Of a DNA stretch of 64,000 bases, positions 6,241-64,000 are shown in pieces; position 1 is the first letter of the stretch; each line of letters opens with the position of its first letter. The notes below the pieces were generated by a model. The model did no database searches. It was not told the DNA's origin and was given only the letters and a program-made list of their open reading frames with translations. Location of the stretch: NCBI GenBank assembly GCA_907165275.2, contig OU015662.1, positions 5,897,501 to 5,961,500 of the forward strand, in the 5' to 3' direction. A program made the position numbers and the translations under genes. Source of the DNA: Zygaena filipendulae. Its lineage: Eukaryota; Arthropoda; Insecta; Lepidoptera; Zygaenidae.

Positions 6241-6297
6241 ATGTTGAACGAATGGTTTCATCGAGGAATAGACAAAGTATACACAGAAGGTTTAGAG
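6241..6297 (+). CDS. Candidate first coding exon of an unidentified gene
   Basis: An ATG with favourable upstream context opens a 19-codon exon (MLNEWFHRGIDKVYTEGLE) that ends at GAG|gtgaaa in phase 0. The composition (mixed polar and aromatic, no low complexity) is protein-like, and an initiator-like TCAGT lies about 190 nt upstream. A short upstream ORF (ATG near 6143) is present in the putative leader. I found no downstream partner exon in this window. I do not recognise the peptide. It could be the 5' end of a gene with a very long intron, or chance. Confidence 0.28.
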
Positions 6298-13906: not shown

Positions 13907-14959
13907 TTATTGTTTTTCAAAATAATCTCCCTTGGCGTCTATGCACTTTTTCATTCGATGAAACCAGTTTTGAAAACTTTTGTGCCACTCCTCTGTGGTG
14001 ACCTCTGAAACGTGTTTTTCATACTCCTCGACAGCCTCTTCTGGTGATGAAAATCGTTGACCGCGTAATTGGTTCTTAATTTTTGGGAACAGAAAAAAGT
14101 CACAAGGTGCCAGGTCGGGACTGTATGCAGGATGACTCATGAGTTCTACATTTTTCGCCTTCAAAAAGTCGTTTGTCTGTCTGGCCGTGTGAGAACTAGC
14201 ATTGTCATGGTGCAGGATGATACGGCGTTTACGGTTATTTTTACGGAGTTCGTCAATAACTTCCGGCAAACAAATGGTCGTGTACCAGTCACTATTCACT
14301 GTACGACGATTCTCTAAAGCAACAGTAGCCACGTGTCCAGTTTTATTAAAAAAAGAAGCAATCATCCGCTTAGATGCACTTTTCACGCGCGCCACTTTGG
14401 TTGGTTTCGGCTCATCTTGAAAGACCCATACGCTCGATTGCTGCTTTGTTTTGGGATCGTAGCAATAAATCCATGTTTCGTCACCTGTTACTATGTCCCA
14501 CACCAAATTTGACGCACCTTCGTTGAATCTGGTAAGCATGGCACTGCACCAAGTGACGCGGTCCGTTTTTTGAGCCTCGGTCAAGTTGTGTGGGATCCAC
14601 CGCGAGCACAGCTTTCTCACACCCAAATGTTTGTGTAGGATTAATTGTATTTGACTCATGCCTATTTCTAAGGATGCGCGAATTTCATGGTAGGTCACAT
14701 GCCTGTCTGTTTCAATCATACGGCGCACAGCATCGATGTTTTTGTTGGTCACAGCGGTGGACGGCCGACCATCGCGAGATTCGTCACTGAGATTGATACG
14801 ACCACGCTTGAATTCTGCAAACCAGCTATAAACAGTTGTCTTGCATGGTGCTTCATTGCCAAAAGCTGTTTCAAGCCAAGCGATGCTCTGTTGAGCTGTC
14901 AAATTACACTTAAAATCGTAGAAAATCATACTACGAAAATTTTCCCGAGTTAAATCCAT
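13907..14959 (-). CDS. Mariner transposase, full length
   Basis: A 350-residue transposase that would cut the element out and paste it into TA sites. I chose the ATG at 14957-14959 (MDLTRENFRSMIFYDFKCNL) because this gives the usual mariner length of about 345-350; the frame is open for 29 more codons upstream, without family resemblance. The N-terminal third has the paired helix-turn-helix layout (AFG...TTVYSWFAEFKRG..., DGRPST linker), then WIPHNL. The catalytic triad is complete: Asp in GDETW, Asp in HHDNASSH, and Asp in YSPDLAPCDFF exactly 34 residues later (D,D34D). It ends GDYFEKQ, typical of the family. There is no frameshift or internal stop, so the copy may be active or recently so. 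Expression would need a host promoter or the 5' TIR promoter. Confidence 0.95.
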   Translation of the reverse strand: MDLTRENFRSMIFYDFKCNLTAQQSIAWLETAFGNEAPCKTTVYSWFAEFKRGRINLSDESRDGRPSTAVTNKNIDAVRRMIETDRHVTYHEIRASLEIGMSQIQLILHKHLGVRKLCSRWIPHNLTEAQKTDRVTWCSAMLTRFNEGASNLVWDIVTGDETWIYCYDPKTKQQSSVWVFQDEPKPTKVARVKSASKRMIASFFNKTGHVATVALENRRTVNSDWYTTICLPEVIDELRKNNRKRRIILHHDNASSHTARQTNDFLKAKNVELMSHPAYSPDLAPCDFFLFPKIKNQLRGQRFSSPEEAVEEYEKHVSEVTTEEWHKSFQNWFHRMKKCIDAKGDYFEKQ

Positions 14960-15105
14960 GTTGATGCAGATACACAATTTTTTAAATGGCGCCACAAGGT
15001 AAAAACAAAAGACAGTCAGATGAAACAAACTGCATTCTACAGCCAAAGAGTTCTATTTTCAAATGTTGCAATACATTTTTAAATATTGTTTATGTAAGTG
15101 GCCAG

Positions 15106-18480: not shown

Positions 18481-18660
18481 AACTTTCCTACCCCCGAGTG
18501 GCGCGACCCCTATTTTATGTGGCTAAAGGCGGTAACAGAGCGGAGGGCGGAGCTCGACGCACCACGCTGCCATTGGCTGTAGGCGACGGCAGCACGTGCT
18601 CAGCCCCACATATATTTAAAACGCAACCAGTGCTTCATACATTTAGTCGTTCATCCGACA
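18481..18660 (+). promoter_or_regulatory. Likely core promoter of the cytokine-like gene
   Basis: GC-rich in contrast to its surroundings. It holds an inverted CCAAT box (CCATTGGC, about 18570), a palindromic E-box AGCACGTGCT (18591-18600), and a TATA-like TATATTTAAA (18611-18620). About 30-35 nt further on is an initiator-like ATTTAGTCGTTC (about 18641-18652). The first plausible exon follows at once. Promoter use is inferred from layout only. Confidence 0.5.
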
Positions 18661-18689
18661 CGAAGCGTGTGACATCACGGATTTTGAGC

Positions 18690-18731
18690 ATGATAATTGC
18701 GCTCACATACTGTTATGGATATACACATTAA
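18690..18731 (+). other. Upstream ORF overlapping a possible start
   Basis: The first ATG after the putative initiator opens a 13-codon frame (MIIALTYCYGYTH) that overlaps the ATG at 18715 in another frame and ends 55 nt before the ATG at 18787. If transcribed, it would lower initiation at 18715 and allow reinitiation at 18787. Confidence 0.4.
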
Positions 18732-18973
18732 CATACCGGCGTGTGCCTTATTAAGAAATATCGGAACTGTGATATATAGATTAAAAATGGAATTCACCTG
18801 CATCGATTGCCAACCGGAAGCTATCCCATCCAGAATGTACCCTATGGGTCTACATGAAGATAAAACGACAGGTTGTGACTGTTATAGGACTAGATCGTAT
18901 AGGCGTTACAGTGACTGTGATAGTGAAAGAAAAACAAGAAGTCGACCGTTTTCACATGCAGCAGTTAGAAGCA
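18715..18973 (+). CDS. Proposed exon 1: basic, Cys-rich N-terminal segment
   Basis: Open from the ATG at 18715 (MDIHINIPACALLRNIG...) or, in better context (AAAAATGG), from 18787 (MEFTCIDCQPEAIPS...). It ends at AGCA|gtaagt, a strong donor, after codon position 1. This matches the acceptor of the next exon, and the join gives Lys. The segment is rich in Cys (CIDC, CDC, SDC) and Arg (RTRSYRR, ERKTRSR), so with the hydrophobic stretch that follows it would make an inside-positive, type II topology. A weaker donor of the same phase exists at 18871 (ACAG|gttgtg). Without splicing the frame stays open to 19098. Another, more distant first exon giving a plain signal peptide cannot be excluded. Confidence 0.45.
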
Positions 18974-21564
18974 GTAAGTGGGACATTAATTGTACATTTA
19001 ATTACAAAAGTCTGAAATTGGAAATGATAGAAGTGACACTGCATCTTATTTTTAGATGCATTTGGGAACTCTCTGATTTATTAAAATCATCCCGTTAAAA
19101 ACGGCAAATCAAGATGTAGAAATGTATTAGTTCAGATCAACTAGTAATTATTATCAAACCATAACAAATTAGTTTTTCATATTTGTGTTAAGCTTTTTTC
19201 CTAAAACTTTTCTTTTTGCAATATTAGTGAGTCAAATTGCCTGTTTTTTCCGAATCGAAACCAGAGTTATTACATTAACAATGTATGAAAAATGATTTCA
19301 AACTGAAACACAAGAAAAATATTCGAACTCACTGAAAAAAGTTTTAGTTCGGTGCATTTGAAAAAAGTTTCAGCTAAGTTACCAATGCAATTCGAAGCAA
19401 CCCTCATGAATAAACTTTGACATGAGTAAGAAACTAATCGCAAATGTCATTTGGCGAATTATTTAATGTTAAAAACAAGTTTTAATGAAATAATGCAAAT
19501 ATAACGTAATACCTACATATTTATGTATCCATTCATTTGCATAAAAATAACAAAAATTTATAAAACTAAATTGAAATCTCACCAAAGTTATTTTATTATC
19601 ATTCGATTAATTAATCGTTATCCTCTTCTTCTATTTCTTATAACAAATTAGTTTCACTGGTGGATCAAAATAATGCGAGCACGGATAATGCCTCGACATC
19701 CGGTCTCTTGACAATCAACAGTTGGCATCCTAGATGTACCTACCTAATAGGCCGCGAATCCGTTTCTGTGCTTACAATTTAATTACGTGCAAAAACTAGC
19801 CCGCTCTCGCCTCCACAATGTTAAACACGGAGATCAGAACCATCTAACTAGGATTAAAGTGTAATTAAACTAATGTACTGTTACCGGCCTGACATATCTC
19901 ACTAAATGTTTCTATCCTTTAACAGTCTTATAGTTATGTCGGTCCGGACTCCGGGCCGACTTGTCTAGCGATAGTTTCGTAATTAGGTGTAGGTATATCA
20001 AAGTCTTCAGCTCTATATAGAGACGAGAAATGATTTAAGTGTAGTTTGAGAAAAAATCAAATAAAAGTAGTTTAACGAATAGGAACGTGTTCCGCAAGGC
20101 TAGAATGCTATGACAGACTGCTCTCTTTTTAATTTATTGCTGTAATATTAAATAACATACCTAGTTTGTCTTTATCTTATTATGCATATTTTAACCGTAA
20201 TTCGTGAACTATTTAAATTTTAATTTATAGACTCTTTTTTAGTTTTTATTCCTTAAATAAGTTATTATCTGTTTAGTCATATTATTTTTTGTTTTGACAT
20301 TGCTCGGAGATATCTCTATCGTAACTTGATTAATTTGAATCTATTAACGTGATTTGTATCAATTAGAAATTCAACTTATTATAATTTTTTGCTTCTATAC
20401 TGAAACCACGATACAATCAATTAAACTACAATTATAAATAGCAATAAACCTAAACATGATCTAAAAAATTAGGCCAAAATAATAATATGTACTAAAAAAC
20501 ACGTGATTTATTATAAATACTAAGTATTAAAAAGATAGATTGATTTAAGGATTTAAGTCACCATCGTCAAATTGAGTAACGACAATAAGCGAACTAGAAA
20601 TGCGTTAGGTTCTTTATCACAATACGTAAGTTTATAGATAGAGTTAATATCTATATTATTTATAAAAATAAATTAAGGAGTGATAGTGTCATTTTAAAGT
20701 TCGTTCAAAATTGAAGCATCTAACTAATCGATGTGTGAGTGGAAAAGCGTGAAATTACCTTCAGTGACACGCACACAAGGGCATAACATAAATAGCTTTA
20801 CGACATACTTGACTTTTTTTGCCTAACTTGAAATGACTTCACATTGCTTGCATCCACTGTCATTTTATGCCTATTAATTTCTATGGCTATTCATACTATG
20901 TGAATTTATTCCACATTAGTAAAGGAGAAAGAATTTTTATTATGCAAATAAAGATATATCAGATGTGTCACGCTTTGTTTAGTTGTTATACTGACTTCAT
21001 GCAACTGTTAAAACTCGTAGTTTTAACAAAGTAAATATTTTACCAATAAGATTTTTTTTAATCTATAATTGTTATCTATATATTTTTTGTAACATATTTT
21101 TTCCTTAAAACCGTTGTCTATTGAGGAGACATAATCTCACAGAATTACCCAAGATCCGATCAGATCTTGAGTTTTCAATTTTTTATAAGAGAAACTCGTC
21201 TTTTTTTTACTAAAACAAAAACATCGAAATTAGCTCATTTTGAATAATGTTTACTGTCCTATTTTCCATTCGCGATTGCAGCGTTATAAAGCTACTTGTA
21301 AATACACTTTGTAAGAGATGTTTCCGTCCCAAATCTCCAATCTTACAGGAGTCATCATTGCTATATTATTGGGCAAAAGAATATTTAAACAGTACCTAAT
21401 GCATCCTTATTCACGATTTCGTTTAGGATTATTGCCGGTTTACATTATAAAAAAGAATTGACATTGGTTTCAATCAACAGGTGACCACACCATTCACTCT
21501 ATAAATATACCTATAATATTCAATTAAGACCGAATTAAAATTATACAATAAGGCACAAAATACA

Positions 21565-21665
21565 GCTGGCGCACGAAACGCGGCGCTAAGGCTGCTGCGC
21601 ACAAGATCGAAAGGCGTGCGGTGCCTGCGCATGTACCGCGCGCTGATTACCCTAGGTACTTTATA
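21565..21665. other. GC-rich island of uncertain nature
   Basis: Roughly 60 percent GC or more in an AT-rich intron, bounded by AATACAG at the left and CCTAG|gtactt at the right. Two plus-strand frames and one minus-strand frame are open through it, which makes coding possible but does not point to one frame. It could be an alternative exon, a repeat remnant or an enhancer. Confidence 0.25.
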
Positions 21666-22260
21666 GCGTGAATTATGTAATTTTTTGTGATTCTTAAAAC
21701 CTCAATTTACTAACTGCATAGATTAATCGCAACAGTAAAAATAATATTGAGGTAACGCTACAAACAAATACCTACAATGAGAAAGAGGAGTGTCTCGTCT
21801 CATGCGCAAAAAAGGTAGGTAGGTACACGTGGAGATCGGCGCCTCGGACGCTTATTATATTTTGTCACACATGATTTCTATACAATTTAACAGAGCGCCC
21901 GGAACGCGACCTACGAACGCCAAATGCGCTTCGTGCCTAAAATTATCACTCAATAAAGCGCATAATTATTTTTTTTATATAGAACCAGCTTTTACGGACG
22001 TATCGCTTGCTAGGCGCTACCGTCAAAAAAATGCCGTTTCTAGTTTAATCTTCCATCATATTATACAAGTTTGTTACGTATTGGCAGCAAGCGAGCGAAA
22101 ACGGATAAAAATCAAGATGGAATATTACAATACATTTTAATTTTTAACCGCAATTATAATATACTCGTATCATCATCAAAAACTCAGCATCGAGTGAATC
22201 GAACGAATGCATAATGTGGACATTGTAGATTTATATTTACACATTTAAATATATTTAAAA

Positions 22261-23280
22261 TCTACATAATGGTTCCCGAATACAGGCGCCAGCCCCGTAT
22301 CGATGACGGTGCGAACTTTTCTTGGTTTTCGAGCCAAAATTCTAGTTAGCGGGCAAGCGGTTTCTTTTTAAAAAGGTTAACAAGGTGTTCTCGTTTGGGT
22401 CATTTTTCATGGCGCGAAGCCTCCTTTTGTACACTGGCGAGCTGTTAAAAAATAAACCAACTCTTTGTTTCTCGGGTAGTCAGACCGACCTCCGCCGCGG
22501 ACCCTACTTTTTTATGTCCCTTATAACCCGTGTATTACGTGTAGGTATCTAAAGTTTTTATGGTCGCCCGGTCAGCTCTTCAATGGGCTAAGGAATTCAA
22601 TCGAGTCTCCTTATTGTTCCCTTTAAATTTATTTTGATACAATTAGATTTTTATTTTGACACAAACAGTATTGTAAGGGGCAACGATTACTGTCGTATTT
22701 ATCGATTTCCCGAACGAGGTAGTTCTCCTTTATATAAGTACTTAAGTACATAGATGTTTTGAGGATGCGATTGAAAAAAAATATAAGATGGTTTTTATTT
22801 CAAAAGTAGGTATTATAAAGATGAATCATTTTGCACCGGACAATCAAAATTTTATTCCCATGGGATCTCTACATATTTTTTAATCTGACCTGTAACTAAC
22901 TTTTTTTTTGTTGAACTTTTGACGGCGCGGTGTTGCGGTTGCTTTTGACCGGCGCACTAATAAAATGTTATGATCGTATGTTTAACGCGTGTTGTGTGTC
23001 GGACCTTCCTTTTGACATGATCGTTATTGCCGGACTACACCTCCGCGGTCTCCTTTTGTGCCACAAACGTAACAATATTATTATTGTGTCAATTAAACGG
23101 GACTATATAACCGGTGTGTTATAGCTATATGAGTGCGAGCTAGTTAGCTCGACCGACTCGGTCGTGATGCATTTTGTGAGCGGTCCATGTTTGAGAGGTG
23201 CGGTCTGTATCGTCATCTCTTTCCATTTAAACGCGGAGGGCGTGTAGTTATCGGGATCTGTTCGGGGGTCTCTAGTTAAA
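22261..23280. promoter_or_regulatory. Candidate intronic enhancer block
   Basis: A kilobase with repeated GC-rich, low-repeat sequence containing SOX-like ATTGTT words, an ACCGGT word (about 23112), and two back-to-back short palindromes (GAGCTA-gt-TAGCTC, then CGACCGA-c-TCGGTCG, 23137-23165). There is no repeat-family resemblance and no convincing ORF. Regulatory function is inferred from composition only. Confidence 0.25.
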
Positions 23281-23956
23281 TAATAATAAACGGCAAAGCG
23301 CCTTATAACTATAATTTGCTTTTATTTAACTGCCGCAGCCGCGCCTGAAGGCAAGGGGAGCAAAATCACCGCAAACTCTACTAACGAGAGGCAATGATAA
23401 AAACACACGCACACGTTTGGTAATTTTAAACTTATTGAAGGCTCTGACTTTGAATTGAATCTCTTACGAGAATAACGAAAAGTAATAGCTCATTAATAAT
23501 ATGAATTAAATAACACCTAGGTACCCAAAAGAGGCATCCGAGATGAAATTCCTGAATGTAATCTGGAATTACAACATATAGCGTAAGAGATTTTTATCTT
23601 AGTCACTCTCTGAACAAATATCATATAGCGATTACTCACGCATATGTTGAGTCAAAACTCTGAAACCAAACACATAGGTGAATTTGGTGAGTAATAACTC
23701 TCATAATAAGTTTAAAAATTTGCAAGTAATTAAGATATTTGGTTTATGCATTATTTGCTTTTAAAAATCTACACAACTTCACTATACACTATCTAATAAA
23801 GGCGATGCCTTTTTTTTAAATAAACTGTATCAGCGTTAGGTAGAGTAATGATATTATGTATTTGTTTATATTGCCTTATACGTACAAGTACATAGTATAG
23901 TTTAATTGACACTTTAGAGATGTGATATAGTATTCGATATCGGAAGAATATCCGGT

Positions 23957-23972
23957 CGGTTATCGATAACCG
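23957..23972. promoter_or_regulatory. Perfect palindrome with DRE/CGATA core
   Basis: CGGTTATCGATAACCG is a 16-bp exact palindrome around TATCGATA, the word bound by DREF and related to the CGATA sites of BEAF-32 in Drosophila. Further CGATA/ATCGAT words at 24070-24095 make a cluster about 300 bp before exon 2. Confidence 0.4.
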
Positions 23973-24326
23973 TTAAGTTATACCACATTACTGATTCACA
24001 CACAAGTTCAGTGGACAATTAGCAAAGGCTGTCCACCTCTGGGGCGCAATGTATTTATTCATCGGATGTTCATCGATTACCATAATCGATAGTATCGCGC
24101 GTGCTGCATACTGTACAAGTGGCCTTTGGACAATTTCATTGATGAGATTCAACGAAAATTACTACCTACTCACTACTTTAAGTTTTTGAGCCTCCCCGCA
24201 ATCTGAAATCGGTTGGCCTTGTCCGACGTAAATTGAGATTTCAAACGTAATTTGCACCAAAAAAGAGGAATGTTCTCATTTTAATTTTGTTTTTGCTGAA
24301 ATCTTTATATTTTTTTTTTGTTGCAG

Positions 24327-24511
24327 AATACGTCAATCTTTGCGCGGCTGTGTGTCTCCTACTATTGGTCTGTAGTCTTTCGCAATCTTCAGCGGCACCG
24401 CACAAGAGTCGAAGCAGAATGGATAGACAGAAACGCGCCACGAGCACGGAAGAAAATCGGGAAAATCCTCTGTGGGGCAATCCCTGCGACTACAATGAAT
24501 CTAACGCAGAT
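24327..24511 (+). CDS. Exon 2: hydrophobic segment, furin site, mature N-terminus
   Basis: The acceptor is a long T tract plus TTGCAG; the donor is GAT|gtaagt in phase 0. The exon enters after codon position 1. It encodes YVNLCAAVCLLLLVCSLSQS-SAA, a signal-peptide or signal-anchor core, then PHKSRSRMDRQKR, ending in a furin-type RQKR, then ATSTEENRENPLWGNPCDYN-ESNAD with one Cys and one NES sequon. There is no in-frame ATG between the preceding stop and the hydrophobic core, so the start must lie in an upstream exon. Splitting the hydrophobic signal region from the start codon by a phase-1 intron is common in secreted cytokine genes. Confidence 0.85.
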
Positions 24512-24901
24512 GTAAGTAAACAAAAATATTATGCGGTCAGACTTCATACATATTATAATATGTCGTAATTGGCATAATATTGTATAATTTGGCCGTTTAC
24601 AAAGTTTATTAGTATTATTATGGTAGTTTGTATAATAGAAATTGAGTTTTGGTGGATATTTCGGGCATTAAAAATTAACTCTGTTCGGATAGTTTAAACC
24701 TTACCAAACCTAGAACTCCTGATAATCTAGATAGTGTGTCACATATACGTCATTGATTTGATGTCACAGTTAGTCCAGTGGTTAACGAACCTGATTGCTA
24801 CACCAGATATCATGGGTTCGATCCCCACATCAAATCAAGGTAGCACTAGGTGTACAGTAAACTTAAACGAACGTATTTTCAATTTCGTTCACTTTTTTCA
24901 G
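24512..24901 (+). other. Intron 2, holding a tRNA-derived SINE head
   Basis: 390 nt, gtaagt ... ttttttcag, phase 0. Confidence 0.85.
24758..24845 (+). repeat. tRNA-derived SINE head
   Basis: TTAGTCCAGTGGTTAACGAA (A-box side) and GGGTTCGATCC (B box, about 24814-24824) at tRNA-like spacing. It does not fold as a complete tRNA and sits inside an intron, so it is a retroposon head and not a tRNA gene. Confidence 0.6.
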
Positions 24902-25000
24902 ACAAAAATCACTATCCAATATTCGCCGTTACTTGCTGAGCAAGCAGCAGAACAAATAAGGCGTGTTGTGAGGTCAGCATCGGAATACCGAGACAGTGTT
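24902..25000 (+). CDS. Exon 3: first helix of the mature domain
   Basis: 33 codons between ttttttcag|A and GTGTT|gtaagt, phase 0 at both ends. Residues run TKITIQYSPLLAEQAAEQIR and on to RVVRSASEYRDSV, a long amphipathic helix with Leu/Ile/Val at helical spacing. There is no Cys. It joins in frame to exons 2 and 4. Confidence 0.9.
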
Positions 25001-25516
25001 GTAAGTATATTAAATATATATTGTTGTAGTATTTTCATAGATGCCTTGTAATTGTAGCTGTTACCTCTCGAGTACCGTGGCTTTCATTATTTCATTTGAT
25101 AGAATAAATTTAAGAGTCGAGACTATCTCCGTAGTATTTGCGTTCGCATTGTTATGCCCGCCGCGTCGCTCTAAATGAACGGACGAAGGCTGCAACCCAT
25201 CAATACTAAATAAAAATAAATACGTCATTACAGGCTCGCAGTTTAAAATGAATGAGTGTATGAATGAGTTTTAAAAACTATGGCATTCTAAATTTTAATG
25301 TTTTTTTTTTTAAACGTGAAATTTTCGCGTTAAATTCGACCCATTATGGATTCCGTACGAGTGCACTCTAGCGCCATTTTCTCACCGCGCGGGCGACGCG
25401 TAAGTAAGATCGTATCGTCGCAGGCGCCAGTTTTGTCTTTAGGAACGTCCGGCGCACGACGCTTCCTCTCGCCAGTACAAAATGTTTTATGTTGTTCAAT
25501 CGAAACTAAACTACGG

Positions 25517-25560
25517 CGAGCGTCTAATTAAAAATATGAAGATTTTTAATTAGACGCTCG
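25517..25560. repeat. Perfect 19-bp hairpin, 6-nt loop
   Basis: CGAGCGTCTAATTAAAAAT (25517-25535), loop ATGAAG, then its exact complement (25542-25560). The lack of any mismatch points to a young or selected structure. It is shorter than usual animal miRNA precursors. Confidence 0.9.
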
Positions 25561-27768
25561 TATTATCAATTATTGAGTGTTTTCTTATCTTTTATAACAA
25601 AGACTTCATTACTGGTCATGGTCGTTTGCGGAAATGGAAACGCCTCAACCTACATTCGTGGATTTATAAATCGTTCACGAATTATGAGAAACGATTGTTT
25701 GGCATGTTAATAAAGCGATTCATAATATGATAGTTCTCTCATTTCTGTCGTCTGAATAATTATTTCCGAATCGGAAGTAGGTAAGGTGGCTCGATCGACG
25801 CACAGTAATGCGTGGTCGTTGCCGTGTCTCGAATCGTTTATGGATGACTCTTCCATGCAGAGTGCGTCCGTGTGGTTCGTTCAATACGAACACTGTTCAT
25901 TTCTAGTGCAGTTCAACAATATTATTGATTGTATAAGATTCAGATGGACGGTGAAAAGGGAACAATGGGTGAGCGGGTACGACTCGCGGACTCTCGGTGG
26001 CATAGTAATAGGCTCGCCAGTCGTAACGTAACGACGGCGACGTCCTGTCCCCTGCCTCCGCGTCGTAAAACCACATTATCGACTCACAGTAGCCGGAACG
26101 AACTACAGGACGGTGCGCGTACGCATCGAATACTGATTGCGCATTAGTATTGCTCGGCACACCTGCCCGCCGATGTGTCTTCGATTTTTTTTTCTTCTGT
26201 CTCTCCCCTAATGTCGGTCATTCGCTGCTAATGTGTCATATTTTATTGCAATTCATATATGTACTGATTCGCTTATTACTGACATTCATGAAGGATCTCT
26301 GTACCTCATTTCAATTCGCCTCCTAATATCATTTAGTCCTGAAAATGTTATTGCTCTGAATTTTGAAATAATGGGCAATGAAATGTAGAAAGTAATATTC
26401 ATAAACAAAATGTAGCAAAGAATACATGAAAGTGGCCAGTAATGGAAAATATTTCGTTGTTTCGACCGAGTGAATTTTAAGAATTCCTCGAGAGCTCCGG
26501 GTGGAAAATGCTTTCTTACAAGACGTCTACTCCCCATAAAATCTTCCTGTTGAATATCACATTCATAGGTAGTTTTAGAGATTCCATGATTAGTGAGTGC
26601 AATGGTATTTAGTTTATATAAATGAATCAAACATCACACTAAGATCAATAACACCTGTTAAAAGATGATTTTTTTTAAATTCGATTTATGATTGAGTCAT
26701 TGCAAATGAGCATCTATTTGCCTTTTGACAATAATTGCATTGAAGTAACTGTTTATTATCTATTAATCATGAGAAACACAATCAAAAAGACACATTACTT
26801 GACAGATAAAAGGAGAATTATGAGTAACATTATGACGATAGGTATACTACCGCAGGTATATTTACGTATATTTGGATCGCCACACCTGTCGTCAACCCAT
26901 TCTGTGAGCACTAAACAAAACTGGCGTGTTGTACTAAGAACGCAATAATAAATTCAACGAACTCTACCGGTACTGTGTGACTGCGCACTCGCCACCGTGT
27001 GAACGTTTCGTAATATACCTTAGCTTTTTACCTCTCTTAAAAAGTATCTCATTACATTTTAAAACGGATTCTTTTGTTTCTGCATGTAGTAAAAAGTTTC
27101 AGTATAAAAGTCACTTAATATACGACATTTAAAAAATAAACGGAACTAGATAGGATATCTACTATTGACGTGGGTTATTCCAGAGATGTTGTTTTATAAC
27201 GTCACACAGTTCATATCTCGATAGCATAGAATGTCATAAACATCGAATAGATATTGTATAACATACAATATATTTTGTACAATAATTGTACGTACATAGC
27301 GCAGTACATGTAGGTAGAGTTGTTCGTACCGGCGACAGGCTGTCTGCTGTTGCGATCGTACGTGTGTTGTAAATACATGAAGTTGATATTGAGCATGAGT
27401 GGGTGCATGTTTACTTGATAAGCTTCCGACGTTTGAAGCTAGGCATTCGGATGCTATGTCATCGAATATCATGAGCGATGGCCGAGCCCACCCATGAGTA
27501 TTCCAAATGCAAACATTGTGTTTTATTTACTCATATCAATGCTTAATTAATAAATAAATTTTCTCTAATTTTATCATGCCAGTCAGGTCATGGGAAGCAG
27601 ATTAGTTATTTAACTTAGAACTTTTAACTTCACTAATCGAAGATAGGAGTTGGATCGGGCTGTTTTTGCCATTATTTTGATTCAGTTTATATGAAGCTGC
27701 CGATTTACAATTTTTTTAATCATTTGAATCTTTCAAATCAAAGTAGGTAAAGGTAGTTCAATAGATTA

Positions 27769-27802
27769 AACACAATTGTATACTTCTGTATACAATTGTG
27801 TT
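27769..27802. repeat. Perfect 15-bp hairpin, 4-nt loop
   Basis: AACACAATTGTATAC, loop TTCT, then the exact complement. Its flanks (ttaa / ctgtttaa) are also roughly symmetric. Confidence 0.85.
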
Positions 27803-28787
27803 CTGTTTAATTTTATTAGGTATTACGAAATATCTAGTTTGTTTTCTGATGAAATCAAATAAGACGTAGGTACTTAGGTATTGAGTAATGGTAGGTACTC
27901 ATACTATCTACTCACAATGTTTATTTAGGTTACAATATAGTCTAAATATAAGTGGATATTCGGAAATAATGGTGTGATAATAATATTATTATAGTGCAAA
28001 TAAGTATGTCCACCGGACGCACACCTGTGAGCTACGTGGCCAAGAGTCTGTCACAAACATTTGTACTTTTGACAACACAAGCACATTCCATCGCTTTAAT
28101 AGTGTCGTTACATTCCAAATGCATACCTACTACTCAAATCTTCAGAATATAATTTTTGGTGTAAATCAATGATAGAATCAGATCAGATAACTCCCAGCAA
28201 TATCATTTTTGCAATCAGAATACCTATAGAATTTCGAATGCTCAACGATATTTTTAATTGGTCGGTTATTGTTACGTGGATATAACAATATTATGTTGTA
28301 GTGTGGCCAGTAACAAAAAGAGACGTGTAATTTTCTATTACACGGCGTGCTTGCATCTGCCACCTAAACCTGTGAATGTGCCAAAGGCATTTGAACTCTA
28401 CGCGTGTTTGTCTACGCTAAGTTTTTGATTACGACTCGCTTGTCACGTATGCTCGACTGAAGTGTCAAATTTTTATGTCCAAATAGTTTAGTATACAGCG
28501 CGTCTGCTGGCTTGCACCCGCAATCTCATCTTTCACACAACCTTGACTGACCCATAAATTTATTCGCTGATTACATTGTACTCGTGCTGTTAAACGAATC
28601 CTTCTTCCTACTATCCTACTTTGTGGAAGTTTGTGAAAATGTTTGGATATTTGTTTCTCAATTACGCATTCATTTACTGTCTTATATTATTTATTGGTTA
28701 TCAAAGGGAATCCTTAAAATTCACTCGTTCTAATTAGTAAGCGATTCTATCTTTACATTCTTTTATCTTAAAATTCTTTATAAATAG

Positions 28788-29115
28788 GCATGTTGACTAA
28801 TTTTTATTTTTTAGTCCGTCTTGTAGATTATTAAAAAATATTGGACACGTATTTTTTCTTTTTTTACTTAATCAAAAAATAACGGCGATATATTGAGTTG
28901 AAATTTCGCATGACGTCACTATTCTGACGGTTTGTATGTCGGTTTTAGTGGTTAGTGACGTCACGACCCCCTCATCCTAAACTTTAATGCGCTTTATCTC
29001 TGTATATTTTAATTTATTTGAAAAAGCAAAAAAATACGTGTCTATTGTTTTTTTATTTTCAAACTGACGGACTAATTAGAATTTTGATTTTTAAAAGTAG
29101 TCCACATCCCCATTC
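28788..29115 (+). mobile_element. Palindromic MITE, copy 2, inside intron 3
   Basis: Same 325-bp element as at 5395. It starts GGCATGTTGACTAATTTTT and ends AGTAGTCCACATCCCCATTC. It carries two perfect TGACGTCA palindromes (28911-28918 and 28956-28963). It lies in an intron of the cytokine-like gene, so it adds CRE-type sites to the locus. Confidence 0.85.
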
Positions 29116-29619
29116 TTTTTATATCATCACACACTATAAATAAAAAAATATTTAAAAAGGCACATTTTAGAAAATCAATATTTAAGCGAATACGTTAGAG
29201 TTAGGTACGAATATGCATATCTCCAAAATTCTCAAAGAGACGACGTAGGATATCACCGTAACTCAATTAATTGTTCATATAAAATTAACACAAATATTTT
29301 GAAAAAATAAAAGTTAAAGCTTGCTAAGATTATTTGACAAAGCAATGTTCCACGGACTGCACTGGCGATAATGGACAAGTTCTAGGGGAACTATACACGT
29401 AATTTAGAGTATGGCTCGGTGTCTTATGGTTCAAATCAAATTGGTTCTGCGTTCACGTGCGCAACGTATATACCTACGTGATTTCGAGAAACGATCTATA
29501 AGTGGGAAGAGTGAACCTACGTATCGATACGTAGGCGTATTAGTTTAATTTGTCGACTCTATTATAAACAGGAAATTAACAGCTTTCCCTAATTAGGTAG
29601 GTAGGTATATGAAATGAAA

Positions 29620-29820
29620 TATAAGAAACGGATAAATTCTTCTAATATTACAAATGTAAAGTTTGTGTGTGTTGATACTACTAATCATGCAAAACCGCGT
29701 GAATGGATTTGAAAGAAATTCGGCACACGATTTATTACCTGGATTAACACATAAGATAGGTACTTCCTTTCCCGGGGAACTTTGAAATGATCTTGGGAGA
29801 GACCGCAGGGAACAGCTACA
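29620..29820 (-). repeat. Dispersed CCGCGG-core repeat in intron 3
   Basis: Minus copy from 'tctaatattacaaatgtaaa' through 'attaacacataagataggta' to 'gaccgcagggaacagcta'; moderately diverged. Confidence 0.65.
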
Positions 29821-30364
29821 CAAATCAACAGAAGAACAAAAATTGATCCATATAATCTATATCTATATGTTATGTCTATCTATAAGAATAAAATTATAGT
29901 GTCTGTTTGTAATTCCAAATTAACAGCTTTTCACTAAATGCATATGAAAGTATAAACGGTACTTTATAAAACAATAAATTTTTAAATTTTTTGTTGGCCT
30001 GTCTGTCTGTTTGTTCCGGCTCATTTGAAAGATGGCAGATCCATGCCATGGCAGATTCCTGCGGGAATTCCGAAACACTACGGGTAGGCATTTGTCGGTA
30101 AACTCAGGACCTTATAATATGCGGTACTAATAGAGATTTCTGTCCTATGAACTGATGACGTGGACTCATCTTCCGCTCGTTTGTTTTTCCTGAAAGCTAA
30201 TAATCGAAGTTATTTTTGTCGTTCAAGGAAAACGAGGAGATAGTAATCGTTTATTATTAGTTGAGTCATGTTTATAATGTTGGTACCTACCCTATAAAAG
30301 TGGTCAAAACATGTATAATAGTAATATTATTTAATATAAATATGGTATAACTGTATTGTTGCAG

Positions 30365-30523
30365 GCCTCCCGTCATAGTTATAAGAGCTTCGATCTGTTG
30401 CTGCAAACCTGGAAGGGACAGAAATACCTTCGCGACAGGGGCGAATGGTTCCGCGATGAGATTCTTCCAGAAGAAAAAGTTATCTTCAAGCCCATATCTG
30501 ATGAATACTTGACTCAGTTAATG
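30365..30523 (+). CDS. Exon 4: helical segment with Trp-containing motifs
   Basis: 53 codons between ttgttgcag|GCC and TTAATG|gtaagt, phase 0 at both ends. The start ASRHSYKSFDLLLQTWKGQK continues the first helix. Then come YLRDRGEWFRDEILPEEKV, an acidic/basic amphipathic stretch, and IFKPISDEYLTQLM, which starts the next helix. Codon use is mixed and GC-rich compared with the introns. No known domain motif was recognised. Confidence 0.92.
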
Positions 30524-31270
30524 GTAAGTTAAAAGTTCATAATATTAATAACTAGGCGTGCAGTGCGGTTTCACCTGTCACTGCGGTTTCACCTGCGTTA
30601 ATTTGGGAGTTTTGGCGGGAACTCTGTGAAATCCTTTCTTAGCTGACGTCTCTTAGCTATAAATTATCTACCTGCCAAATTTCAGTTTCGTAAGTCAAGT
30701 AGTTTTCGAAATTTCGTGTTTAGCATTGAGTCATTGACCTTTCGCTGTTTCTTTGACTAAAGTAGCTGTTTCACCGCAATTTCGTAAATTTCCCGATGAA
30801 TTCCTTGTTCCATGCAAGATAAAAAATATGCTATGCTACTTAGGAACACTATATCTATCAGTGAAAGAATATTCAGGATCGGTTTATTTGTTACAAATAT
30901 TACCTCTTACCCTTGCCTCCTACAGACAAGCTTTATTCGTTTTTATTATCAGTACGAGTACCTATATAGATTATTATTATACCTCTACGTCACGAGTACG
31001 AAGAGCATAATCAATTGGCGGCACATTCGTTGGTGCCGAAACGTGCATCCGCAACAATTTTTCAATCGATTTCAACGAAACGACTTCGTCGGTGGCTCCC
31101 ATTGTTAGCACCGACTATCACTTACGTGAGAACAATCGTTTTGCAACTAAGATATGGCTCAATTATGTGTATAAACAATGTTTGAATTAGGATGATGCAC
31201 GATACACAATCGTTTTTCATTCATTTTAACGAACAAAGGTTACTAGTGTGTTATATTCTCTTGTTCGCAG
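30524..31270 (+). other. Intron 4
   Basis: 747 nt, gtaagt ... gttcgcag, phase 0. It contains a relic of the CCGCGG-core repeat at about 30555-30760 (the 'tgcggtttcacctg' block twice) and nothing else recognised. Confidence 0.85.
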
Positions 31271-31453
31271 GGCAAGATCAAAGTGGATAACGAGATTTTG
31301 CCGCGAATGTATAAAAGTCTGAAGCTGATTGTTGCTTCGTTGCACGAATTCAGCAACTACCTGTCCACCGACAACGTCGCTCCCGATGACACGTTGAAAG
31401 ACAACATTTATAACACGATGCGCAGAGTGTGCCAGATTCTGTGCCAGTTTAAT
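31271..31453 (+). CDS. Exon 5: two helices with a CxxxC pair
   Basis: 61 codons between ttgttcgcag|GGC and TTTAAT|gtaagt, phase 0. GKIKVDNEILPRMYKSLKLI and VASLHEFSNYL form a long hydrophobic-heptad helix. A loop STDNVAPDDT follows, then LKDNIYNTMRRVCQILCQFN, a helix with Cys residues four apart on one face. Pairing of one of these with the single N-terminal Cys would staple the bundle, which is an inference. The minus-strand open frame over this exon is a shadow. Confidence 0.93.
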
Positions 31454-32010
31454 GTAAGTGTTATAATACAAATCGTTTCCTATTCTATACTATACTACTT
31501 CATCCTGCTCTAACAAATAACTTACTACAATGTGAAATTGGACATAGATAAGCCACATTGGAGAAATTTTGATTAAATTGTGTTTTAAAATTACATTGCC
31601 ATTTTGTATCAACATTTTTTTATGTTCAACATCTTGTTGGTATTTTAACAATGTAATAAGGTAAACATATAATTAAAAAAAACGTCCTATAACTCTCAAT
31701 AAAGTATTCTGTATCATAACTTAATTTTGTGGGTTAGCAAATTATTGCTAATCGGCATCCAATTATACCTACTGAGATTTGAAAAGTATTCACTTTCAAA
31801 ACTCCCTCAGAAACTCTTTTTATCGGTATGAGAGTGTCATAATTTTTTTTTTGTATCGGTTCAGCGGTTACCAAGATACCCCTTACAATTTCCTACAAAC
31901 AAACGAACATTTCCTTTTTATATATATTTTGTATCTCAATTTAAGTTGAAGTAGTTTCGGCTCTACGTTTACAAGTCAGTGTGCTCATACTATTTTTATG
32001 TTTGTTACAG
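31454..32010 (+). other. Intron 5, with a repeat shared with 62.8-62.95 kb
   Basis: 557 nt, gtaagt ... tttgttacag, phase 0. From about 31541 to 31690 it matches, in opposite orientation, the right part of the element at 62310-63040 (aattggacatagataagc, cacattggagaaattttg, aacaatgtaataaggtaaa). Confidence 0.85.
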
Positions 32011-32181
32011 ACTATATTAGAGAGTCGTAAACTACCAGTGCTGCCGTTGTTGGACTCTGAGGTGCCCAAAGTGAATGTGAACAACAAGTCGGAAATGGAA
32101 GTCCTCATTTACAGAGACACCCTCAACTATTTGGAGTATCTCGAACAGGTGTTCCGGAAGATGGCCGAAACGAAGGTTTAG
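32011..32181 (+). CDS. Exon 6: C-terminal helix and stop
   Basis: 56 codons plus TAG after the acceptor tttgttacag, phase 0. TILESRKLPVLPLLDSEVPK is a Pro-rich connector. VNVNNKSEME carries an NKS sequon. VLIYRDTLNYLEYLEQVFRK then MAETKV is a strongly amphipathic final helix (Leu/Ile/Tyr/Val/Phe on one face), as expected for the last helix of a helical cytokine. Codon use and composition match exons 3-5. Confidence 0.93.
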   Translation, partial: TILESRKLPVLPLLDSEVPKVNVNNKSEMEVLIYRDTLNYLEYLEQVFRKMAETKV

Positions 32182-33415
32182 ACCGACTCGGTTGTGCTAA
32201 ATATAATTAATATAAAGACTTTTGTCAGAAATAACAGACCTACACGAGCGTTTTACATTTTATCATTTTTATTTATTGTACTTAACTGTTGGTGCTTATA
32301 AAAACCGAACAAAATGAAACGATTCATGTTGCACGGTTGCTCACACGTCTCAGTTGTTTAGTTTTAGTTCAATTACATGTTATACATATTGTATTACGGC
32401 TGCTATATATGCTCTTACATAATTGTAATTATATAGAATAATTGTATTTGGCTGTAATTTGTTTTTTTTTTTCGAACACTACTCGAATTTGCCATCATAT
32501 TGCCATTCTTCTTTGGAATGTTAGTTCCTTAAATATTTTCATTTATTATTTTGTGTAAATAGGTGATGAATTTAAAATGTATTATTTATTGTATTTAATA
32601 GAAATCGGAACAATCTAAATTTTCCAATAGGTAGTCCTAGTCAAGGTAACTTATTTATTAAACATAACTGTAGTTTTTATTTAACGCTGTTCCGGTTTCC
32701 CAATAACTTATAATTGTAATTTTTCGATAAATAGGTACATATTATAACGAGGACTGAAGAAAATTCGCTTAGTCTTGTCGGACTGCCACGTTAGAGACGT
32801 AGCGTAGAGGTTGCTTATTATTCCTACAGGTGTCGTTTTAGATTACGACTTCGCCACTGAACTAGCTATCTATAACTATTTGTGAATCAAACTAACATCT
32901 TTTTAATCGACTTCCTAAAAAGGAGGAGGTTCTCAATTCGACGCGTATGTTTTTTTTTTTTTTAATTTTTTTTTTATAAACGAATGAACCACCTACAGTG
33001 CTACATAGGTGGTTAGTTCTATAGGAAAAAATATAATCAAAAGCAAAATAACTGTTTTTTTTTTCTTGATATTTACAATTAACTTTATAGAGCGTTTTTG
33101 TTGCACTTTGTGGAAAAATTCATGATTCGATAACAGAAAAGCGGCCATCTTATCCAGAAAAAAATTGTCTCTATCCAAGCTTTTTCGGCTGTTTGTCTTT
33201 ACTGTCTATCATAAATAATTTATTTCACGCGATCTTGATTAAATTCTTGTCATGTAATCTGAATCGCGATCAATAGCTACTTCATTAGTTTTAATTTCTT
33301 TGTTAACTATTTATATTCCCGTCGGTAATCGAATGAGACGAATTCATAGCTTTAACTTTACTAATAGTTTTGTTAATTATTACCGTAAAGAATAAAGCCA
33401 GTGTATTTATAATGT
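32182..33415 (+). promoter_or_regulatory. 3' UTR with AU-rich elements and poly(A) signal
   Basis: It runs from the stop codon to AATAAA at 33391-33396, followed by a GT-rich stretch (gtgtatttataatgt). Three exact TTATTTATT nonamers lie at 32269-32277, 32582-32590 and 32651-32659. In animals this is the class of element that drives fast mRNA decay of cytokine messages. The background is AT-rich, so enrichment needs testing. A scrap of the ACTTCC-type repeat lies at 32903-32960. Confidence 0.55.
32903..32962 (+). repeat. Fragment of CGACTTCC-ended repeat in the 3' UTR
   Basis: 'taatcgacttcctaaaaagg', 'aggaggttctcaattcgacg' and a T-run match the left ends at 39757 and 61530. Confidence 0.7.
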
Positions 33416-35684
33416 AAACATTATTTGTATAGTTCATATCATAGTATTTATAGACTTGGCAGCATTTTCTGACATTAAATTATTACAATGAAATTAATAT
33501 AGTTGTTTTTATTCATTACAACCCATTAAAATCAGATATTAAAACCTAGTTTAGATAAACATTTATCATTTAAGGTACAAATATAAAATATTATACACAT
33601 AGGTATAGCTGTTATGGTGGTATAATTATGTGTAAATAAATAAATAAAAATAAAATAATATTATATATTATATACGTATTTATATCCAGTCTTTCTTTTC
33701 TCACCACCTTCGTGGCTGGTGATTTGTATTCTCATCTTTTTATACCAGAAGTTATGGGGTTTAACTCCCACTATATCCAAAGTTCAAACCAAATTTGTGT
33801 GGAAACAATCTATGTCTTAGTGTTCAAATGCGTGTGTAGTGACTAGTCATCCTAGAACTACTTTGACTATGCAATCAACGAAATATATCTAGTTCCGATA
33901 ACTCGTGTGACGTCAAACGCCTACTGTGGTTCCCAATCATTTAAGATTGAGTCAACGTTAACAGAGACATCGTGAATGAAAGGAGAGCACACGATAAACT
34001 TAACGTCAAATCACGATTGTCAGACCCTATATCGAAACGATCGTGATCCAAAGTTGCTTCCATACACCTGGAAGTGATTAAAAAAGTAATGTCCTTAAAA
34101 AAAAGTAGTTAGAGATGAGGCAAGTTTATTATAAACTTAATATCTATTTAAATAACCCTTCACTTGGATTGGTGGTTTCTATACATATAACATTTTTAAT
34201 ATCAAATGGTGTGTATAATTATTATGAATCCATTCCTTAAATACGATGCATACTGCAAATATCTAACTCGCTACTGATCTTTCCGTGGTATGGGCAGTGA
34301 ATATGAGCCTTGACTTGGCCGGCGCTCTCACATTATGGATACATTTTTTTGATCCTTAACTAAAAATAAGAAGGTCGATGTAGGTAACACAAACATAATA
34401 GTTATCCCACTTATCACATTAGGCAGTCAAACCAGGCGACATAAAAAGTCAACGGCTATGTTATTACACGAACAGACGCATTCCTCCCTTGTTCGTCGCA
34501 TTTGTTCCCATGAGTTGAAACTGGAAACAATTTCATATCTTTACACAACATATTCACAGCGCGACGCATATATTTGCGTTGGTGACTTGGTCACTCTGAC
34601 AAATTAGAGCTGCCGACCACAGGAGTTAAAGAAATTTAAACGATATAATATATCATTTTTAAATATTATTCTAACATTTATGGTACTCTATTGAGATGAG
34701 TGAAGGTTTAAAGTCGTTTGCAGATGCATTAGTACCTATCTAACGCTTGATGTCTACAATGTTTTTAAGAGTAAGCTGCTACTGAGCTCATAGCGATTAC
34801 AAAGACGCAGCCGATATTGTGCGTGTTTATTTAATGTGTTAGTGATGGCCACACCGCTAGTATTGTCAAATTTGTCCACAGGAGATCCTTAGGCGCTAAG
34901 TTTAGTTTGGTCTGGTTAGTGCAAGCCGGCGTTCCGACAAAGTGTTCATAGTGATACGAAGCTAGTAGTCGACTACAATGAAAAATTATTATTATATCAT
35001 GCTCGGATGTTGAACGACTTGTGATAACTATTTATCAAAGCGCTGTAGAGTTTTGTGAAAACTATGTAGAGCTACGTGGCTATGATAGTTATAGTTAGGA
35101 TAAGTTCAAAGAGTCAAAACTAAAAAAGAGTCCTCGTCAAAACCAATCGTATGACCACAATTTGATGGAGCTATGCCGTTTGTTGTTACAAAGTTCCCAT
35201 GGCCAGCTTTCGGCTCCATCATCTGATCAACTATATGTCATAATAGTATTGCATTGTCATCCATATTATACATACAAAGTTTGAATTTAGGTACTTCTTA
35301 GATTTATTTATTACATTGTTAGTTACAAGTGAAGCTATTTATATAAAAATATTTTTGACTCAATTAACTATAATGTAGAATAATGTGTAGAGTTGGGTAA
35401 CAGCACATTACACGTGCACATTTTTTTATATGTAAATACCCCAATATCTGAACATGAAAAATTCTGACTCCGTATTTTTTAAAGATTTATGCTCACTAAG
35501 AGGTTATTAGGTATTTAATCAGTTTTATGCTGAGTAAAATTAACAATTAACTTATAATACACACATGTCAAGTGAAGTTAGAGCAAAGAAAAGGGAACTG
35601 GCGACGCAGCAGCCCCACGTGTATGTATTATTTGGAGCCAATTTTGACCCCTCGTAAGTGAAATTTTGTTAACTTATAATCTTA
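33416..35684. other. Intergenic, no gene seen
   Basis: Low-complexity AAAT/AATA near 33630-33665. A GC-richer stretch at 34830-34960 lacks an open, splice-flanked frame. Nothing else was recognised. Confidence 0.4.
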
Positions 35685-57857: not shown

Positions 57858-58777
57858 CACACATCAAAAGTGTCTAGGGATCAACATATATTTTTGCAAT
57901 AACTTTTCTCCTGATTGATATTAATTAAAACTTTCTTTAAGGATTCATCAAATAAAGTGTTTTCGTTTGTCACAGTAACGATAAACCAAGTCACCTTTGC
58001 ATTAATAAAGAAATTTGCCATTTTCCTAATAAAGGGATTTTTGACATTTGAACCACTAACATTAAAGTTCGAAAAAAAGACTGAAATAACAGTTTTCTTT
58101 AAAATTTTATTGGGTAACTTAAACAATTAATAATCCGTGTTTCTACCGCGAACACTAACAACCCAAGAACATCGGTTTGGCATACTCAAAATGAGTTCAT
58201 CCAAATCACGCTGTGGAATGGCCGCCCATGTTCGTTGCAACAACAAAAAAAGGTCTTCTTGCGACTGGATACCCTCCATATTCGGCAGAGCTCTTCTCTG
58301 TAGCATATCCCATGCATGCTCAATTGGGTTCAAGTCTGGCGACTGAGCAGGCCAGGGCAGGACATTGATGTTAGCTGCGGCGAGAGTCTGTCTTACAACT
58401 CTTGCGGTGTGCGGTCGTGCATTATCATGCATTAACTGAAATAAGGGACCGATTTGCACTTGTAGAGGAACGATGACGTCTGATACAATCGTCTCAGCAT
58501 AAATTTGAGCGTTGAGGTTGCCTCTGATCCAAATCAACTCAGTTCTTCCGCCGATCCAAATACCCGCCCATACCATGATGGTTCCACCACTATAAGGATG
58601 GACTTCCTGGCAGGATTTTAATCGCTGTTGGCGTCCAGGGGTTCTCCAGTGTCGTATACGTCTTGTATCCGGTCTCATACCAAAACGAGACTCATCAGAA
58701 AAGCACACGAAACGCCACATCTCAATCTCAAGAAATCCGCATAAAAATGCTTGATCCCTAGACACTTTTGATGTGTG
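57858..58777 (-). mobile_element. Internally deleted Tc1-type element with intact ends
   Basis: The ends 57856-57884 and 58751-58779 are exact inverse complements over 29 bp (including TA on each side; inner part CACACATCAAAAGTGTCTAG). The unit is only about 920 bp against the usual 1.6 kb or so. The transposase N-terminal half is gone, and its remaining frame starts within a few bases of the right end. It could still be moved by a related transposase acting in trans. Confidence 0.9.
58127..58777 (-). pseudogene. Tc1-type transposase, N-terminus deleted
   Basis: The C-terminal catalytic part of a Tc1-like transposase is readable without a stop for about 210 codons. It shows FSDESRF (first Asp), the TIMVWAGI strand, LMHDNARPHTARVV (second Asp), and WPAQSPDLNPIEHAWD, with Glu exactly 34 residues after the second Asp (D,D34E). 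The N-terminal paired HTH/DNA-binding region is missing: the frame runs straight into the terminal inverted repeat at 58751. The nominal Met upstream at 58813 lies outside the element and is not meaningful. It is not expected to be a working transposase, since end recognition is lost. Confidence 0.92.
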
Positions 58778-58779
58778 TA

Positions 58780-59100
58780 TTATTGTGGTTAAAACTAGTG
58801 ATGTCATATACATATAATCCTCTGTAAAGAAAGAGCAAGATTTATGTTGACTTTTTAAATTGTTTTACTTTATGAATATGGGTAAGTATATTCAAAAAAT
58901 GTAAATAGATTGTAAATTAAAATAGCAGTGGAAGAATTATGTTTACAATTAAAATAATCTAATAATCGTTATTAATTCGGTAAGGCTTTTTAATTGGGTC
59001 GGATTAATAAACTAACAAAAGGTTTGGACTGTGGTATTCGCCGTTTAGATTGGGTTGATATTCGCCGGCGCAGGCGCGTACATAGTTTTGTTGAAGCTTT
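58780..59100. other. Intergenic spacer
   Basis: AT-rich, nothing recognised. Confidence 0.4.
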
Positions 59101-63194: not shown

Positions 63195-63312
63195 GTGAAA
63201 GGTTGTCTGGAAGAGATCGCTAGTAAAGCGATAAAACCGCCTTTTGAATGCTTTTAGTTATAAGTTTCTGTAAACACACTGTAACATTATTTTGGTGTAC
63301 AATAAAGTGTAT
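63195..63312 (+). repeat. LINE-type 3' end
   Basis: 'ggaagagatcgctagtaaag', 'cgataaaaccgccttttgaa', then 'ttttggtgtacaataaagtg'. From general knowledge, this is the typical 3' terminus of a common lepidopteran non-LTR family, ending in its poly(A) signal. Its pentamer tail TATTC continues as the microsatellite. Confidence 0.6.
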
Positions 63313-64000
63313 TCTATTCTATTCTATTCTGTTCTATTATGTTCTATTCTGTTCTATTCTGTTCTATTCTGTTCTATTCTGTTCTCTTCTGTTCTCTTCT
63401 GTTCTATTCCGTTCTTTTCTGTTCTCTTCTGTTCTCTTCTGTTCTCTCCTGTTCTCTCCTGTTCTCTTCTGTTCTCTTCTGTTCTATTCTATTCTATTCT
63501 ATTCTGTTCTATTCTGTTCTATTCTGTTCTATTCTGTTCTATTCTGTTCTATTCTGTTCTATTCTGTTCTATTCTGTTCTCTTCTGTTCTCTTCTGTTCT
63601 CTTCTGTTCTCTTCTGTTCTATTCTGTTCTATTCTGTTCTATTCTGTTCTATTCTGTTCTATTCTGTTCTATTCTGTTCTCTTCTGTTCTATTCTGTTCT
63701 ATTCTGTTCTATTCTGTTCTCTTCTGTTCTCTTCTGTTCTCTTCTGTTCTCTTCTGTTCTATTCTGTTATATTCTGTTCTATTCTGTTCTCTTCTGTTCT
63801 ATTCTGTTCTATTCTGTTCTATTCTGTTCTATTCTGTTCTATTCTGTTCTATTCTGTTCTATTCTGTTCTGTTCTGTTCTGTTCTGTTCTGTTCTGTTCT
63901 GTTCTGTTCTGTTCTGTTCTGTTCTGTTCTGTTCTGTTCTGTTCTGTTCTGTTCTGTTCTGTTCTGTTCTGTTCTGTTCTGTTCTGTTCTGTTCTGTTCT
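63305..64000. repeat. Long TTCTG/TTCTA microsatellite, runs off the window
   Basis: About 695 bp of pentamers. It is first TTCTA, then blocks alternating TTCTA-TTCTG and TTCTC-TTCTG, and finally pure TTCTG (from about 63870 to the end). Higher-order decamer blocks repeat, which points to expansion by slippage or unequal exchange. It is incomplete at the right edge. Confidence 0.97.

Follow-up and report, generated by a model that had tools for sequence, protein, structure and literature searches.

Surveys of insect genomes have recurrently reported the JAK/STAT receptor Domeless in species where its ligand was not found. In the honey bee, Domeless is present and its ligand was “currently unrecognized” (PMC1847501), and in the pea aphid (PMC2872881) and soft scales (PMC11084805) Domeless and the pathway were described and upd was not found; these statements, like the others taken here from the literature, refer to the parts of the papers that were covered. 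Domeless and STAT are also present in Ostrinia furnacalis, and the covered main text of that study does not contain “upd” (PMC3895045). One review on Bombyx lists DOME, HOP and STAT and names Vago-like as a cytokine of the JAK/STAT pathway, while Upd3 is drawn there only in the legend of a figure (PMC12653786); another treats Upd ligands in general terms (PMC10899340). CRLF3, for its part, is an orphan receptor (PMC8063046). We describe here a gene located in a 64,000-nucleotide stretch of the genome of the moth Zygaena filipendulae (hereafter the window; contig 13 of an assembly of 366 Mb in 56 contigs). Its product is probably a secreted long-chain class-I cytokine of the IL-6/CNTF/IL-11 type, cut at an RQKR site and likely acting as a Domeless ligand that switches on Hopscotch/STAT, which makes it a likely candidate for the missing JAK/STAT-activating signal of moths and butterflies. 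The gap is long-standing, and the conservation of an IL-6-like, apparently secreted protein in at least 35 species makes the trigger of the pathway in Lepidoptera directly testable.

Gene structure, precursor and distribution

Six in-frame coding exons are joined on the forward strand across positions 18715-32181 of the window (Table 1), with intron phases 1,0,0,0,0, GTAAGT at all five donors and CAG at the end of all five acceptors, and encode from exon 1a through exon 6 a precursor of 351 residues. A previous sequence-only reading had proposed five exons with consensus splice sites in one frame; these correspond to exons 2-6, and the protein layout it had deduced was recovered exactly, with a hydrophobic signal or anchor, RQKR and a mature part of 228 residues containing three Cys and two sequons. 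This mature part has a mass of 26.7 kDa, its Cys occupy positions 17, 165 and 169, and its sequons are NES20 and NKS197. Because the homologues hold about 30 additional residues at one point, a gene model without exon 3 (mature part of 195 residues) was rejected and this exon was sought among the open reading frames of the intron, where a profile of the corresponding homologue segment found it (expectation value, E, of 4.8e-5) with flanking splice sites in phase.

Protein searches, in a database clustered at 90% identity, returned 42 different proteins, of which four are unnamed and 38 are named and come from 35 species that we take to be Lepidoptera, the silkworm, with the Bombyx gene LOC101739051, and the tobacco hornworm among them; no named homologue outside this order was found at E <= 10. 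With the exon 3-less product of 232 residues as query, 33 proteins were retrieved at E values reaching down to 1.7e-62, three of them unnamed and the other 30 named and all lepidopteran; in another homologue search, scoring was limited to the 7997 candidates with most words in common. The source records label these proteins uncharacterised, hypothetical or unnamed. The gene had been called unrecognised, which holds for its function, still unassigned, and fails for the gene itself, already predicted by public pipelines as an uncharacterised protein. The mature protein of the window shares 28-50% identity with the 41 homologues aligning over at least 160 residues, including 44.6% over 224 residues with the modelled P0010, the remaining one being a short fragment matched over 25 residues. 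Leptidea, Choristoneura and Leguminivora have two entries each and every other species a single one, and each pair is taken to be one gene modelled in two ways. Among the open reading frames of at least 40 residues in the 264 kb around the gene, no further family match at E <0.1 was detected beyond those holding the window exons. None of seven locus numbers searched for was found in the literature covered, from which subscription journals are mostly absent, and the family was not seen named in any title or opening of an abstract listed there.

Since matches to homologues reach E 1.7e-62 and exon 1a matches their N-termini at a tblastn E of 2e-18, the locus is, judged by its conservation, a real gene and not a chance alignment of exons. 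The large introns do lie in transposon-bearing sequence, including a mariner-type frame (13907-15052), but the exons are conserved across species in an unbroken frame, so that exons brought together by chance, or a gene that has died, are barely conceivable. This conservation likewise speaks against the lack of a spliced transcript, which the sequence-only reading had named as a refuting outcome.

Two alternative first exons are present. Exon 1b lies far outside the span of 18600..33420 assigned to the gene by the sequence-only reading; a precursor begun there has 280 residues, and its n-region ahead of the hydrophobic signal is short. It is matched by the short N-terminus of homologue P0018 at a tblastn E of only 0.17, and the case for it rests on its upstream position, donor, phase and start rather than on this value. 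N-termini are long and exon 1a-like in 23 of the 42 homologues, and short and exon 1b-like in 11; the long N-terminus of the Bombyx model has mostly a predicted local distance difference test score (pLDDT) <50. As a rule, a long n-region goes with a type II anchor. The exon 1a start would put about 87 residues ahead of the hydrophobic segment and may for this reason produce a type II membrane-anchored pro-form to be released by furin. The exon 1b start would lead to a plain signal peptide and a secreted form, so that the two starts may give anchored and secreted pro-forms of one identical mature factor. Upstream ATGs occur at 18690 for exon 1a and at 6241 for exon 1b, each in a frame overlapping the main start (18690-18731 and 6241-6297, respectively). 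Two homologue models (P0034, P0035) begin with the same MLNEW reading as the one from 6241, a hint that an upstream reading frame may be conserved.

The hydrophobic segment is present in both isoforms of the window protein and conserved in the homologues. A script looking within 40 residues of AAP found an R-X-K/R-R motif behind the signal in 31 of the 42, inspection by eye added five more (P0024, P0026, P0030, P0037, P0039), and six are devoid of it. The product is predicted to be secreted and cleaved by furin at RQKR. Two cysteines are shared across the family, the one in NPC/YPC by 40 of the 42 homologues (all but P0013 and P0031) and the one in VLC by 39, the misses being P0032, P0038 (LLC by eye) and the fragment P0042. 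Their counterparts in the mature part of the window protein are Cys17 and Cys169, which are probably linked by a disulfide; Cys165 is an extra Cys of the window protein.

Predicted fold and sequence families

Folding was carried out on two presumed orthologues (P0010, with Bombyx among the models), and the mature part of the window protein was related to them through its alignment to P0010. Both models are confident predictions of a long-chain four-helix bundle, with long A-B and C-D crossovers and a short B-C link, and the same bundle is predicted for the product. The sequence-only reading had anticipated such a bundle, and no structure of another type was seen. Helix order and lengths fit the up-up-down-down layout of class-I cytokines in both models, the directions being taken from alignments alone, and both align sequentially with CNTF and IL-11 from helix A to helix D. 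Judged by title, class-I cytokines account for 50 of the 50 re-aligned structural neighbours listed for each model, and for 41 and 42, respectively, of the 50 Foldseek matches listed; the Z score at rank 50 is inside the range typical of helical models in general. Nothing in a library of viral structures matched at E <= 0.001, and the IL-10 and IL-6 homologues of viruses came up only at E above 1. The earlier proposal of a long-chain helical cytokine is thereby supported at the level of the fold, receptor and function being what we infer beyond it.

Searches of Pfam and NCBIfam with the window protein or its homologues yielded no credible match to a named family; a clear match to an unrelated known family, named beforehand as evidence against a cytokine, was not seen in these searches, and the PDB sequence search gave nothing significant. 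Several weak matches were put down to chance. They pointed to NAD(P)H-quinone oxidoreductase subunit L, to an antibody chain and, in the PDB, to KH-domain chains and to one chain called GPX62. The 33 homologues showed scattered matches to DUF5063 and to 16 further Pfam families, and two NCBIfam matches lay far below cut-off.

Surroundings of the gene

About 96 kb downstream, outside the window, lies a second gene model, the sole further one of interest seen within the 264 kb that surround the first gene. The hydrophobic signal exon of this model is entered in phase 1 and joined in phase 0 to the last exon; no first exon of its own was found for it. The last exon begins with FKYLIPKLYKSLK, whose LIPKLYKSLK motif resembles LPRMYKSLK at the start of helix B of the first gene, and its helices are assigned from propensity and hydrophobic moment alone. 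Compared with the first gene by hhalign, it aligns over 14 columns with a probability of 1%; its best BLASTP E is 0.051, and the family profile scores 2.5 bits on it, a value reached by 10 of 500 shuffles. These comparisons gave no evidence of homology between the two genes. No Pfam match was found for two raw open reading frames and one provisional join, and no PDB sequence match. If this model encodes a cytokine, the locus would represent a cytokine cluster. A very long pyrimidine-rich simple repeat extends from ~63250 to 64000 and on to ~66200, with SVLFCSILFY repeats in its translation, open in three forward frames; it looks like a satellite rather than a gene.

Table 1. Coordinates of the gene and of other features, in window numbering
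Feature	Position	Strand	Description and basis
Exon 1b, alternative first coding exon	6252..6297	+	MVSSRNRQSIHRRFR, donor AGAG/GTGAAA, phase 1; tblastn, joins exon 2 in frame
Putative TATA box, upstream of exon 1a	18611..18619	+	By eye only
Exon 1a, first coding exon	18715..18973	+	86 complete codons upstream of hydrophobic segment, Cys/Arg-rich, phase 1 end; tblastn and splice sites
Exon 2	24327..24511	+	Signal peptide/anchor (YVNLCAAVCLLLLVCSLSQSSA), pro-segment, furin-type site, beginning of mature part
RQKR furin-type cleavage site (predicted)	24425..24436	+	Motif within exon 2
Exon 3	24902..25000	+	33 residues, helix A at 24926-24982; profile match, phase 0/0, helix mapped from model
Exon 4	30365..30523	+	A-B crossover region
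Exon 5	31271..31453	+	Helix B and most of helix C, conserved Cys169 (mature numbering)
Exon 6	32011..32181	+	End of helix C, C-D crossover, helix D (32086-32169) with RDTL motif, stop codon
Second gene model (outside the window)	128136-128515 and 134090-134563	+	Hydrophobic signal exon, helix-rich last exon
Mariner/Mos1-type transposase frame, open	13907-15052	-	Pfam DDE_3 and HTH_48; intron between exons 1b and 1a
Transposase frame, presumably Tc1-like	58127-58864	-	DDE_3 domain

Candidate role and comparison with known cytokines

In the mechanism that we favour, the precursor would enter the secretory route through its hydrophobic signal or anchor, a furin-type cut at RQKR would free the mature four-helix factor, and binding of this factor to the gp130-like receptor Domeless would turn on the Hopscotch/STAT pathway, with a role that may lie in immunity, stress or growth. 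A Domeless ligand appears to be the most economical mechanism, with CRLF3 as the main alternative. Erythropoietin is a class-I helical cytokine. It activates insect CRLF3, whose endogenous ligand has been identified in no organism, and a CRLF3 ligand circulates in locust haemolymph, according to the parts of PMC8063046 covered. The same source infers a ligand conserved among insects, whereas the named relatives of the moth family are only lepidopteran, and the best structural neighbours of the models belong to the gp130 family of cytokines, which suits the gp130-like Domeless. A class-I cytokine addressed to CRLF3 or another receptor is on this evidence unlikely, and Domeless is provisionally preferred. 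Less likely still is a secreted helical protein peculiar to this lineage, with a carrier, structural or antimicrobial role and cytokine-like by convergence: although the family is known from one order only, a shared fold is no proof of function, and helical bundles are common and a rank-50 Z such as that obtained here is ordinary for them, the listed re-aligned entries all come from one superfamily in both models and cover the whole course from helix A to helix D, and a furin-type pro-site fits a signal molecule.

The relationship with Unpaired weighs more heavily. The Unpaired profile of Pfam (PF15972, 273 positions) gave no match at E <= 10 to the window protein lacking exon 3 and none at E <= 0.1 to the 228-residue mature part, HMMER filters dropping most matches above E 0.1, and it is absent among the families matched by the 33 homologues at E <= 10. 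Because of these negative results the product is not filed as Unpaired. It may still work like Unpaired, and fast divergence could hide an orthologue behind what had been suggested as an “additional or diverged” member of this class. That the product is in truth the Drosophila Unpaired orthologue, with a sequence too diverged to be recognised, and not a separate cytokine, is a serious possibility to which we give somewhat less than even weight. The predicted kind of molecule is the same, no lepidopteran Upd gene appeared in the literature covered, the two Bombyx reviews mentioning Upd ligands in general terms, and PF15972 finds no match in the whole Zygaena genome, a search without positive control as the profile matched none of 14 control genomes either. 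Against it stand the lack of a profile match in the window protein and in any of the 33 homologues and the second secreted, helix-rich gene model, which could be the orthologue instead. A wider proposal is possible but rather doubtful: an order-wide IL-6-like family, distinct from Unpaired, would be the missing lepidopteran activator of JAK/STAT, expressed from two promoters as anchored, furin-shed and as secreted forms, with a second, diverged cytokine gene downstream.

If the product is a Domeless ligand of the class-I type, as we favour, helical cytokines would have survived in insects where sequence searches no longer reach them, and they could be found by their fold. Like Drosophila Unpaired (Upd1-3), as presented in the sources covered, the moth protein would be a secreted insect factor and a candidate ligand of Domeless; it differs in its lack of a PF15972 match, a contrast based on the profile and not on a direct comparison of sequence or fold. 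Its identity with the IL-6/gp130 family (CNTF, IL-11, LIF, G-CSF, IL-27 p28) is 8-16% among the matches listed, and prolactin and growth hormone reach lower Z scores than CNTF against the moth models. From the IL-6/gp130 family, the moth protein is distinguished by its furin-type pro-segment, its alternative long N-terminus and its named relatives found only in Lepidoptera.
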